Assembly: GCF_029937855.1 (NCBI RefSeq)
Contig: NZ_JAPYPC010000017.1
Span: 17,202 to 81,201, forward strand
Origin: Christiangramia sp.
GTDB taxonomy: Bacteria > Bacteroidota > Bacteroidia > Flavobacteriales > Flavobacteriaceae
Length of the DNA: 64,000 nt
Reading direction: 5' to 3'
Below, piece after piece: positions 1,281 to 21,853 of the stretch. A program made the translations under genes and the position numbers. Each line of letters opens with the position of its first letter. Position 1 is the stretch's first letter. The notes under the pieces are model-generated. The model was not told the DNA's origin, did no database searches, and worked only from the letters and a program-made list of their open reading frames with translations.

Positions 1281-2384
1281 TTATTGATTGCTGGATCCAT
1301 TCTGGCCTTTTTCGGAATTCTCTCTCTTTTCTTCAGCAATTTGCTTTTTAGCTGCTTTAATTACTTTTTCACTTGCAGGTTCTGGCTTTTGCTCTGCGCT
1401 AAGTTCTGGCTGAAGGTATAATTCCGCATAGAATGGAAAATGATCAGATTTTATATCACTACCAATTCCAATCTTTTCAACCCTAAACTCCTCAGAAACA
1501 AAAATATGGTCCAAAGACCATCGCATTATAAAACTGGTGACATCGAAAGTATTATAAAAGCTCCTTCCTTTTCTTACATCCAGAAGTTCTCCAATACTCT
1601 GGAACATACTGGTTGTATTAGACCAGGCTACATCATTAAAATCGCCTATTACCATCACAGGAATTTCAGCATCTCTGGCCATAAATGCTATTTTCATCAT
1701 TTCAGCATCCCTATCAGTAGAAGAAGGATTATGTTGTGGCATGGGCGGAGTGGGATGTATGGCATGCAGTTGCACCCAATCGCCGGATCGTAACTGGATT
1801 TGTGAATGAATGGATGGAATACTATCGTCTACCAAATATTTCACCTCTGCATTTTTTAATTTCAATTTGGAATACAGAAGCATTCCGTAGGTGTTATCCA
1901 GGGGGACTATTTTTTTATAAGGATAATTAGCTCCTATCCCTTCCTCAATGGCTAAATCCCAGTTTGTATCTGTTTCAGTAAAAATAGCGACATCGGGATT
2001 TAATTTTTTAATTTCCGCAATTAAAAGTGCCGTTTCTTTATTCTTTTGAAGTACGTTTGAAGTTAATAATTTTAAGCCGGTATTTTTATTCACTGTTTCA
2101 GTAGGCTTACCTACATCATAGGGGGCAAAAGGGGTATAGGGGTATATTTTTATGAATTGAAAAATAAAGCAGGCCACTAAAACTGTCATAAAAGTATAAT
2201 CTCTCCATGACCTGATCTCAAACCTGAAAAAATACACAGCAATGGCCGTAAGAGTTAAAAGCGTTAATTCTATATGAGGATAATCAAACATCCTGATCCA
2301 CCAAAAGTCGGCAGCAATAAGGGGAATTAAAGTGATTACAACTGCCAGGATACCGAAGCCCTGAAGAAAAGGTTTTAATTTCAT
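1281..2384 (-). CDS. membrane-anchored endonuclease/exonuclease/phosphatase family protein
   Basis: A 367-residue protein with three predicted N-terminal membrane helices (about residues 8-27, 36-52 and 63-80) and then an EEP (DNase I-like) domain. Catalytic signatures are visible: TETDTNWD carrying the metal-binding Glu, the HAIHP segment, VIGDFNDV, WSLDHIFV and a late SDH motif (KSDHFPF). The C-terminal 50 residues are Lys/Glu-rich and look disordered. This architecture (TM plus EEP) is common in Bacteroidota, where the substrate is usually unproven; it could be a nuclease or a phosphoester hydrolase acting outside the inner membrane. It lies between two MscS genes in the same direction, 22 bases after the upstream one. 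Confidence 0.85.
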   Translation of the reverse strand: MKLKPFLQGFGILAVVITLIPLIAADFWWIRMFDYPHIELTLLTLTAIAVYFFRFEIRSWRDYTFMTVLVACFIFQFIKIYPYTPFAPYDVGKPTETVNKNTGLKLLTSNVLQKNKETALLIAEIKKLNPDVAIFTETDTNWDLAIEEGIGANYPYKKIVPLDNTYGMLLYSKLKLKNAEVKYLVDDSIPSIHSQIQLRSGDWVQLHAIHPTPPMPQHNPSSTDRDAEMMKIAFMARDAEIPVMVIGDFNDVAWSNTTSMFQSIGELLDVRKGRSFYNTFDVTSFIMRWSLDHIFVSEEFRVEKIGIGSDIKSDHFPFYAELYLQPELSAEQKPEPASEKVIKAAKKQIAEEKRENSEKGQNGSSNQ

Positions 2385-20251: not shown

Positions 20252-20278
20252 TAGCCGGTAAAAAAAATTTACCGGCTA
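20252..20278. terminator. hairpin downstream of the small-peptide cassette
   Basis: Perfect 11-bp stem TAGCCGGTAAA / TTTACCGGCTA with a 5-base A/T loop. It lies 93 bases past the last peptide stop in the direction of minus-strand transcription. The following bases are not strongly T-rich, so it may act as a weak terminator or an mRNA 3' stabiliser. A second near-palindrome (AGCTAAAAAGCTTTTCAGCT) follows at 20278-20297. Confidence 0.55.
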
Positions 20279-20370: not shown

Positions 20371-20511
20371 TTAGGCGTAGGTTCTGCGGCTATACCAGTT
20401 AATATGGCCATGGCCGCAGGTATCCTTTAAGTTAAGAAATGGCCTGCGATGAGTTAAGCCTCCTTCTTTACTGGTTCCAAAATCCTGGATAATGCTGTCT
20501 AGCGATTTCAT
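20371..20511 (-). CDS. small peptide 3 of the cassette (46 aa)
   Basis: A 46-codon ORF starting at the ATG complementary to 20509-20511 and ending TAA at 20371-20373. The peptide begins MKSLDSIIQDFGTSKEGGLT, continues HRRPFLNLKDTCGHGH and ends INWYSRRTYA. The N-terminus looks like a short amphipathic leader followed by a GG doublet. The second half has one Cys, two His in a CGHGH motif, a Trp and an RR-[aromatic]-A ending that recalls the endings of the two upstream peptides. There is no signal peptide or membrane helix. I do not recognise the family; a ribosomally made and modified peptide precursor, a secreted signal or a small regulatory protein are all possible. It starts 29 bases after peptide 2 ends. 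Confidence 0.55.
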   Translation of the reverse strand: MKSLDSIIQDFGTSKEGGLTHRRPFLNLKDTCGHGHINWYSRRTYA

Positions 20512-20540
20512 GATGATAGTTTTTTGATGATTAATTTGAC

Positions 20541-20642
20541 TTAAGAAAATTTTCTTCGGTTCAAGAAGCTTAAATTTTTAGTACTGGCTTCAGTGCTCAT
20601 AAAGGATTTTCTGTTTTTGGTGTTTCTTACTAAAGTTGTCAT
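20541..20642 (-). CDS. small peptide 2 of the cassette (33 aa)
   Basis: A 33-codon ORF, paralogous to peptide 1. The protein begins MTTLVRNTKNRKSFMSTEAS and ends TKNLSFLNRRKFS. Residues shared with peptide 1 at the same positions include T-x-L, T-K-x-R-K-S-F-M-x-T-E-A and N-R-R-[KR]-F. It is very basic with no Cys. The two copies have kept identical length and reading frame while the nucleotides have diverged, which points to selection on the peptide. The start is preceded by TCATCAATCATTAAAATCATCAATT-like sequence shared with peptide 1. Function unknown. Confidence 0.6.
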   Translation of the reverse strand: MTTLVRNTKNRKSFMSTEASTKNLSFLNRRKFS

Positions 20643-20689
20643 AATTGATGATTTTAATGATTGATGAAATTGTACTTTTTCGGTAATAA

Positions 20690-20791
20690 CTATGCGAATC
20701 TTCTTCGGTTTGTATAGCTTATTCTTTCAGAATTTGCTTCCGTGTTCATAAACGATTTTCTGCTTTTGGTGTAACTTAATAATGTTCTCAT
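20690..20791 (-). CDS. small peptide 1 of the cassette (33 aa)
   Basis: A 33-codon ORF beginning MRTLLSYTKSRKSFMNTEAN and ending SERISYTNRRRFA. It is the promoter-proximal member of a 149-base tandem duplication with peptide 2 and lies about 33 bases downstream of an ECF-type promoter (20824-20851). Differences from peptide 2 fall mainly in the middle (residues 20-27), with the TK-x-RKSFM core and NRR-[KR]-F tail held. It has no signal sequence, membrane segment or known domain. It is too short for most gene callers. Confidence 0.6.
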   Translation of the reverse strand: MRTLLSYTKSRKSFMNTEANSERISYTNRRRFA

Positions 20792-20823
20792 GATTGATGA
20801 TTTTAATGATTGTTTCTACTAAA

Positions 20824-20851
20824 TAGACGATGAGAAACGAAAGGCGTTACA
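20824..20851 (-). promoter_or_regulatory. candidate ECF-sigma promoter for the small-peptide cassette
   Basis: Read on the minus strand, TGTAAC (20851-20846) and CGTCTA (20829-20824) are separated by 16 bases. This is the AAC (-35) and CGTC (-10) arrangement of extracytoplasmic-function sigma promoters, and unlike the housekeeping TTG/TAnnTTTG promoters elsewhere in the window. The predicted 5' leader to the first peptide is about 25-30 bases. Confidence 0.5.
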
Positions 20852-21001
20852 GTACTATGTAATAAAAGGTACTAATTTAACAATTCATTAACTAAATTCA
20901 TTTTCGGTGCTTATTATTAATTCCGGCAGGCATGAAAGTATTGTTAATCTTTTTGAAGCCCATATACATTAATGTAATTTTAGATACCTAAATATAAATT
21001 G

Positions 21002-21853
21002 ATGAATAAGTGGGCAATTGCTATTATCGTGTTTACTCTTATTTTGGCAGGAGTAGTGTATGCTATTTATGAAAAGAATGACTACGATTATGATGATGCC
21101 AAAAAATCTTATGAAATCGTGAACAAATGGGAATTACCCCTCGAACTGAATGAAATTTCAGGAATTCACTGGATGGGTAATGAACAGATTGCCTGTGTGC
21201 AGGATGAGGAAGGAATCATATTTATTTATGATTTGTCTGCTTCAAAAATTGTTAAACAATATAAGTTTGCTGAAAATGGGGATTATGAAGCCATGGCTTT
21301 TTTGAATAACGAATTTTGGATAGCAGAAAGTAACGGTAAACTTTTTAATATAAAAAGTCTTGATGGCACTGAAAAAGAGGCTGAAGTAACAGAACTCGAA
21401 TTTGAATATCGAAATAATATTGAAGGCCTTGCCGCAAATAAAGATGGTGATCTCTGGTTAGCTGTAAAGGAAAAAAACCTTGATAATAGTAGCGGTTATA
21501 GAGGAATCTATTCTTTTAATCCTGAGACTAAAATCCTTAATAGTGATCCTGTTGTTAAAATTCAATATGACGATCCTAAATTTGAGGTTTTAAAGACAAA
21601 AAATCCAAGAAAACTTATCCGGCCATCGGGACTTGCATTTTCTCCTTTAACAGGAGAATTGCATGTGCTGGATGCAGAATTTCAAAAAATCCTTATTATA
21701 AATGCAAGCGGGAAAATAAAAGAATTATACCTTTTAGATCCAGCTGAATTTGCGCAGCCAGAAGGCATATGTTTTAGTCCCACTGGCAGATTGTTTATTG
21801 CGAACGAGTCTCTTGGAGGACCGGCCAACATTACTGAAATTAAGATAAACTAG
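21002..21853 (+). CDS. SdiA-regulated domain protein, membrane-anchored beta-propeller
   Basis: A 283-residue protein with one N-terminal membrane anchor (IAIIVFTLILAGVVYAIY, about residues 5-22) and a beta-propeller-like body. The segments ELNEISGIHW, NNIEGLAANKDGDLWLAVKE and IRPSGLAFSPLTGELHVLDA match the SdiA-regulated family (YjiK type), which is related to phytase/esterase-like propellers; its biochemical role is unproven. I take the ATG at 21002 rather than the TTG at 20999. The stop overlaps that of the convergent dipeptidase gene by the palindromic tetramer CTAG (21850-21853). The divergent partner upstream is the small-peptide cassette. Confidence 0.8.
   Translation: MNKWAIAIIVFTLILAGVVYAIYEKNDYDYDDAKKSYEIVNKWELPLELNEISGIHWMGNEQIACVQDEEGIIFIYDLSASKIVKQYKFAENGDYEAMAFLNNEFWIAESNGKLFNIKSLDGTEKEAEVTELEFEYRNNIEGLAANKDGDLWLAVKEKNLDNSSGYRGIYSFNPETKILNSDPVVKIQYDDPKFEVLKTKNPRKLIRPSGLAFSPLTGELHVLDAEFQKILIINASGKIKELYLLDPAEFAQPEGICFSPTGRLFIANESLGGPANITEIKIN

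Follow-up and report, generated by a model that had tools for sequence, protein, structure and literature searches.

Close together on the minus strand of the window, by which we mean the whole 64,000-nucleotide stretch of Christiangramia sp. DNA that was analysed, are three ORFs with lengths of 33, 33 and 46 codons, and the question that they raise is whether they are genes and, if so, when they would be expressed and what their products would do. A preliminary description had reported ORFs of these sizes, and all three are present (Table 1). It also held that normal gene calling finds nothing here. This is partly true: relatives of the third peptide, which we call B-type, are deposited as hypothetical proteins for several Christiangramia genomes, and any descriptive name carried by the 34 B-type proteins related at E <= 0.01 is "hypothetical" or "uncharacterized" protein. 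The first two ORFs encode peptides that we call A-type and are underlain by a direct repeat of 116 nt with 80% identity and a spacing of 149 nt, consistent with the 149-bp tandem duplication previously proposed as their origin. On its upstream side, the cassette is flanked by an SdiA-regulated/phytase-like gene (20999-21853, plus strand) and also by an M19 dipeptidase gene, and downstream of it lies a PBP1A-like gene with transglycosylase and transpeptidase domains (Pfam). A stem loop before the latter gene would terminate the cassette transcript; we found two such terminator-like stem loops in the scanned stretch, compared with a shuffle mean of 0.5. An Rfam scan of the whole window yielded no match at the gathering threshold.

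Table 1. Features of the peptide cassette, in coordinates of the window
Feature	Position	Strand	Remarks
Two GTTAA boxes	20877..20892	-	upstream of operator, by eye
Operator-like element AGTACCTTTTATTACATAGTAC, AGTAC-N12-AGTAC	20852..20873	-	one base from GTAAC box
ECF-type promoter GTAAC-N16-CGTCTA	20824..20850	-	GTAAC 20850-20846, CGTC 20829-20826
ORF 1, A-type peptide, 33 aa	20690..20791	-	genus relatives have the same length and TKxRKSFMNTEA ... RRRFA
ORF 2, A-type peptide, 33 aa	20541..20642	-	tandem copy of ORF 1
ORF 3, B-type peptide, 46 aa	20371..20511	-	HRRPFLN ... W/Y..RR.Y; amphipathic N-terminal segment
Terminator-like stem loop, 11 pairs	20252..20278	-	between cassette and PBP1A-like gene

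Judged by their conservation, the three small ORFs are real genes. When the genus Christiangramia was searched with peptide 3, we observed matches in 24 of 24 genomes (E <= 1), 23 of them at E <= 2e-6. The weakest match (E 0.012) falls in a Christiangramia genome that is 67% complete, and under the loose cut-off 14 of the 24 genomes have two to five matches, of which some are weak. Named homologues also come from Salegentibacter and Gillisia, and the Christiangramia sequences are partly labelled Gramella. The genus loci that we fetched usually encode one to four A-type peptides (33 aa) plus one to three B-type peptides (44 aa), and B-type peptides alone were seen at some of them. The A-type peptides follow the pattern MTTLVSNTKSRKSFMNTEAN...RRRFA, and the B-type peptides follow ...IIQDFG..KEGGLTHRRPFLNLK...WY.RR.YA.

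The peptides are under purifying selection, with silent sites favoured and a median pN/pS of about 0.5. The A-type genus set (25 sequences, 300 pairs) has a median of 0.49 and values below 1 in 99.3% of pairs, and the B-type genus set (23 sequences) has a median of 0.47 and values below 1 in 253 of 253 pairs; because the pairs are non-independent and many are saturated, these figures are indications, not estimates. Between ORF 1 and ORF 2 themselves, the differences at codon positions 1, 2 and 3 number 7, 8 and 11 (34 codons including the stop; pN 0.215, pS 0.405), a third-position bias that is weak for a single pair. Selection on protein, as the preliminary description had suggested, is supported by the genus-wide pN/pS values and weakly by the third-position bias between the two copies. 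Chance ORFs were also considered and are ruled out by the genus-wide matches, the motif-bearing ORFs behind promoters and the pN/pS values below 1.

A peptide family had been proposed for this locus, with two paralogues and a separate third peptide. The family stands and the separation does not: by profile comparison, the A-type and B-type peptides, together with 28-aa and 37-aa types, are one conserved family, arrayed in tandem. The comparison of the B and A profiles gives a score of 36.0, which is reached by 0 of 60 column-shuffled controls, and profile links join all pairs of the four types except A/37-aa, for which the direct match is not significant. With bridging rows removed, five of the six profile pairs beat all 60 column shuffles, and the score of the sixth, A/37-aa, is reached by 9 of 60. 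The first comparison of the A-type and 28-aa profiles had one row in common, and its result held without that row and two bridging rows. Outside the genus, relatives of 28 aa and 37 aa are likewise arrayed; they follow the patterns MRTLNSNQ...WNSKRRYR and MKASITKTATESKTGQYFSSFRNSKRVQWAQYRNYNR, respectively, with W and R residues that are invariant or near-invariant. The core of the family is C-terminal and consists of an aromatic residue, then basic residues, then a last aromatic residue. Among Pfam and NCBIfam models, no family fits the 23 B-type and 24 A-type peptides searched, nor do these peptides match PspA, PspC, toastrack or LiaI-LiaF-TM. Membership of a known family is therefore rejected, the only matches being weak and each involving no more than one or two members (best E 0.028). 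When 5.8 billion proteins were searched by words with a 42-aa peptide type from other genera, just one relative came up. The literature searched, which mostly excludes subscription journals, holds no description of the peptides, and their motif strings are likewise unmatched there.

The promoter region provides an independent way of locating members. The exact composite CATAGTACTGTAACR-N15-CGTCT occurs in at least 117 stretches in GTDB species genomes. Eighty listed loci, chosen by this promoter alone, carry 26 genus labels, for example Winogradskyella, Maribacter, Aequorivita, Aquimarina, Algibacter and Arenibacter, and a motif-bearing small ORF lies within 800 nt at 70 of the 80, compared with 35 of 1374 control windows. 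A family peptide missed by the motif rule was seen by eye at five more (L189, L209, L210, L225 and L255), the available stretch stops within 112 nt of the promoter at two (L188 and L216), and no family peptide lies near the promoter at three (L201, L204 and L246). In a sample of the phylum, the exact composite is present in 4 of 296 genomes, all within the same family (4 of 30, versus 0 of 266 outside it). Of 199 family genomes searched with a profile of the 37-aa type, 25 match at E <= 0.001, probably spuriously in three cases, and 8 to 10 matches at several separate loci were found in each of G032, G025 and G080. Profile A1 gave 27 matches at E <= 0.05 in 299 family genomes, of which 5 are below 1e-4 and most others are noise-like; the distant members among them were chosen by eye. 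In some genera (L160, L167 and L159) the arrayed peptides have 23 to 28 residues and the copies are nearly identical, indicating recent duplication or gene conversion.

An ECF-like promoter had been noted upstream of the cassette, and it is well conserved: of the 24 genus genomes, 23 have GTAAC-N16-CGTCT ahead of the array, with a spacer of 16 in 22 of them and 17 in one. The stretch read from genome G161 (L027) has no such promoter. We observed the same association among 27 peptides found by protein profile (30 listed loci minus three without a central peptide), since GTAAC-N15-17-CGTC lies within 900 nt upstream in 18 of them, compared with 0 of 600 mononucleotide shuffles. The pair is absent by pattern upstream of the other nine; when the upstream regions of these loci were reread, one (L330) was seen to have the operator described below and a one-base variant of the ECF pair, and nothing clear was found at the other eight. 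A putative ECF sigma factor would read the cassette promoter. This genome has 18 Sigma70_r4_2 matches, but a convincing copy of the promoter was seen at none of its ECF genes, where the best scores are 6.2 and 4.1, versus a minimum of 13.1 and a median of 37.1 for cassette-type sites. Taken alone, the ECF motif gives five matches in a scan of the own genome, compared with two for the control. Two further occurrences were observed: GTAAC-N16-CGTCTTTTATATAG before a 74-aa ORF with a hydrophobic N-terminus (L068:1250-1474, minus strand, same genome), downstream of a sucC-like gene named by eye, and GTAAC-N16-CGTCT before a stand-alone 112-aa DUF4870 protein (L067:1566-1904, plus strand), the motif alone being weakly above control.

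The preliminary description missed a second element, the AGTAC operator-like element, which links the cassette to a PadR-PspC operon. Of the 23 genus promoters, 13 carry an exact AGTAC in each half of the element; in the remaining 10 the half next to the promoter is retained and the distal half reads GGTAC or ACTAC. PadR-PspC operons have AGTACT-like palindromes ahead of them, a relationship that we checked here by pattern search and Pfam. The pattern AGTACYNTKYWWWRCATARTAC, derived from both kinds of site (cassette-type and PadR-operon-type), has exactly two matches in this genome, one at the cassette and the other at a DUF4870-PadR-PspC operon, and its control has none. After the second site, the operon order is a short ORF, DUF4870, PadR, PspC with toast-rack and LiaI-LiaF-TM, and a DUF2807 protein. 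Pfam identified PadR, PspC, toast-rack, LiaI-LiaF-TM, DUF4870 and DUF2807 in the operon of this genome, the one genome to which the Pfam identity of PadR applies, with HAAS below cut-off. At L099, the first ORF of the DUF4870-PadR-PspC operon (near 1300-1440, minus strand) has about 41 codons and a hydrophobic C-terminal stretch, and it comes after the operator and a TATATTTG box.

Across the family, AGTACYNTKYWWWRCATARTAC matches 179 of 397 genomes, with 0 for the backward-read control among the matches listed. By eye, a DUF4870-like gene, a PadR-like gene or both come next at 24 of the 30 loci listed for this pattern, in most cases with a box of the type TAnnTTTG, and at the remaining 6 an ECF box and tiny ORFs follow. 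The operator is also found upstream of 11 of the 27 profile-found peptides, compared with 7 of 600 shuffles. From these sites, a PadR-type repressor is predicted to bind the AGTAC element, and the cassette promoter is likely to be under a PadR-type repressor too. PadR control is not general in the family, however, given that the operator precedes only 11 of 27 peptides and the ECF box is missing from nine. The ECF pair, at 18 of 27, therefore characterises the family more broadly than the operator, which goes with a part of it. By eye, GTTAA boxes stand ahead of many sites in each of the two operator classes, a hint of some upstream element or of a third regulator.

The peptides themselves are predicted to be translated as small, mostly cationic products. 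Mean net charge runs from +4.0 (B-type) to +6.6 (37-aa type), cysteines are few, and neither a signal peptide nor a hydrophobic membrane span was seen by eye. The N-terminal segment of the B-type peptides is amphipathic as a helix (mean z 2.18, with 96% of 23 peptides above 1), and the 37-aa tail has a weak amphipathic bias (z 0.84). No such bias is present in the A-type peptides (-0.8 to -0.9), the 28-aa tail or the C-terminal part of the B-type peptides. We therefore rejected an amphipathic cationic helix as a general feature, since it fails for the A-type peptides and the 28-aa and B-type tails, and membrane binding by A-type peptides is weakened because they have no amphipathic bias. AlphaFold2 returned short helices of low confidence (pLDDT 59.3 and 67.8) and no stable fold. 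Such helices would suit peptides that fold upon binding, and they prove nothing.

We also surveyed up to two ORFs of at least 100 aa on each side of the 80 listed loci, which gave 268 ORFs in 38 recurring families plus 99 singletons; Pfam typing covered representatives of 20 of the 24 most frequent families, the rarer families and the singletons being untyped. The commonest neighbour is an uncharacterised protein without a Pfam match, present at 20 of the 80 loci and mostly divergent. One example is L253:159-917 (minus strand), and similar-looking genes were seen by eye after operator sites in L170 and L175. Next comes ExbD at 11 loci, followed by MFS-like, EamA and elongation-factor-G-like genes at 6 each, HSP20 at 5, universal stress protein and PCMT methyltransferase at 4 each, and aldo/keto reductase and helicase. 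No modification or export gene general to the arrays is present among the neighbours typed at these loci. Because the neighbours vary, the arrays seem to be stand-alone units in varying places.

The explanation that we favour, and to which we give about an even chance, is that the cassette encodes three family peptides that would be made under envelope stress, through the ECF promoter and the likely PadR control, and would act within the cell, at the inner membrane or on its stress sensors. The shared operator class and the ECF promoter suggest a two-input output of envelope-stress signalling. A membrane disturbance would remove PadR from the operator and activate the sigma factor, so that the array would fire only with both signals present. 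A tandem arrangement would increase the dose. The cationic tail and aromatic residues may then attach to the heads of anionic lipids or to a partner close to the membrane, for example PspC-toastrack, with the B-type peptides anchored via their amphipathic N-terminal segment. We infer both the binding partners and the site of action, and with moderate confidence we place the binding at the inner membrane or close to it, which is the reading closest to the regulon.

Given that the operator class is common to the cassette and the PadR-PspC operon, the peptides could instead be feedback regulators that bind PadR, the PspC/HAAS sensor or an anti-sigma factor and so tune the same stress circuit. Their small size and lack of enzyme-like features agree with this. 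Tandem copies and up to 10 profile matches per genome at separate loci, however, suggest dose and not a fine regulator, and no array was seen in the four PadR operons that we read (L101, L102, L104 and L105), so that we regard feedback as unlikely, if still a serious candidate. The same operator class, in pointing toward a membrane-stress unit, argues against a role in which the tails, rich in Arg/Lys and aromatic residues, attach to ribosomes or RNA and damp translation under stress. The high net charge, the constant W and R residues of the 28-aa and 37-aa types and the elongation-factor-G-like gene near some of the listed arrays would fit such a role, but no further translation gene recurs among the typed neighbour families, and we think it distinctly improbable.

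The preliminary description had proposed secreted, modified or regulatory peptides, and the first two of these would include RiPPs, bacteriocins and pheromones. The arrays do resemble tandem precursors with conserved ends and variable middles, and MFS and EamA transporters and PCMT each lie near a few of them. None of these genes is general, however, and the commonest neighbours are the uncharacterised protein and ExbD; nor was a signal peptide seen by eye. Two features of peptide 3 noted there are not conserved: the GG, which would be a leader cleavage site, varies among relatives (GG, GN, AN, GD and others), and none of the other 22 aligned B-type sequences, including one with 86% identity, has CGHGH. 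Secretion or modification is accordingly very improbable. We give even less credence to a functional transcript, a small RNA or leader in which the ORFs would be incidental. While the stretch upstream of the array is strongly conserved, as such a transcript might lead one to expect, the frames and ends of the peptides are kept across genera despite diverged DNA, and the pN/pS values, the terminator-like hairpin ahead of the next gene and the empty Rfam scan likewise speak for the peptides.

The favoured explanation, envelope-stress peptides acting at the inner membrane or its sensors, can be compared with known systems. PspC/toastrack/PadR units are phage-shock-type membrane-stress systems (PMC11237479), and the likeness to those of the HAAS-PadR kind is that the operator class of the cassette also stands before such an operon in its own genome. 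The cassette peptides match none of the PSP components described. Nor do the peptides accompany PspA, since PspA passes its cut-off in 9 of the 24 genomes of the genus and this genome gave no match, whereas peptide 3 matches all 24. The Listeria operon sigC-lstR brings together a PadR repressor and an ECF-like sigma factor (PMC6624303), and its two-input logic is likely the same as that of the cassette, with a PadR-type repressor and an ECF-type sigma factor. The output there is a RodA/FtsW homologue and the regulators lie inside the operon, whereas the cassette has a tiny-peptide array as its output and its regulators are predicted elsewhere (PMC6624303). The ECF-type regulon SM6 of Flavobacterium psychrophilum includes T9SS parts, Band-7 proteins and an ECF/anti-sigma pair (PMC9723704); unlike the cassette, it comes with no mention of such peptides or of an AGTAC operator in the available portion of its description (PMC9723704). 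Stress-induced small membrane proteins such as YohP are typically shorter than 50 aa and go up in unfavourable conditions (PMC12719787); they are membrane proteins, which sets them apart from the cassette peptides, in which no hydrophobic span was seen by eye.

A broader reading, which we offer tentatively as a possibility and not as a probability, is that the cassette represents an undescribed kind of effector with which the Flavobacteriaceae would answer membrane stress in place of a PspA scaffold. Cationic peptides of 23 to 46 residues, made from tandem arrays under the two keys of PadR and an ECF sigma factor, might coat the membrane on its inner side, B-type peptides serving to anchor the layer and A-type peptides to fill it.

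All examined Christiangramia genomes contain the family, which extends to many further genera, most of them marine, and is largely unannotated because its members have only 23 to 46 residues. Since the promoter signature is recognisable, members of the regulon can be enumerated computationally and then examined in strains that grow in culture. If the favoured explanation is true, the PspC/toastrack/PadR systems of Bacteroidota would gain a concrete, conserved output beyond their own operon, and the arrays would provide natural tandem micro-genes in which to study the selection and multiplication of tiny proteins.
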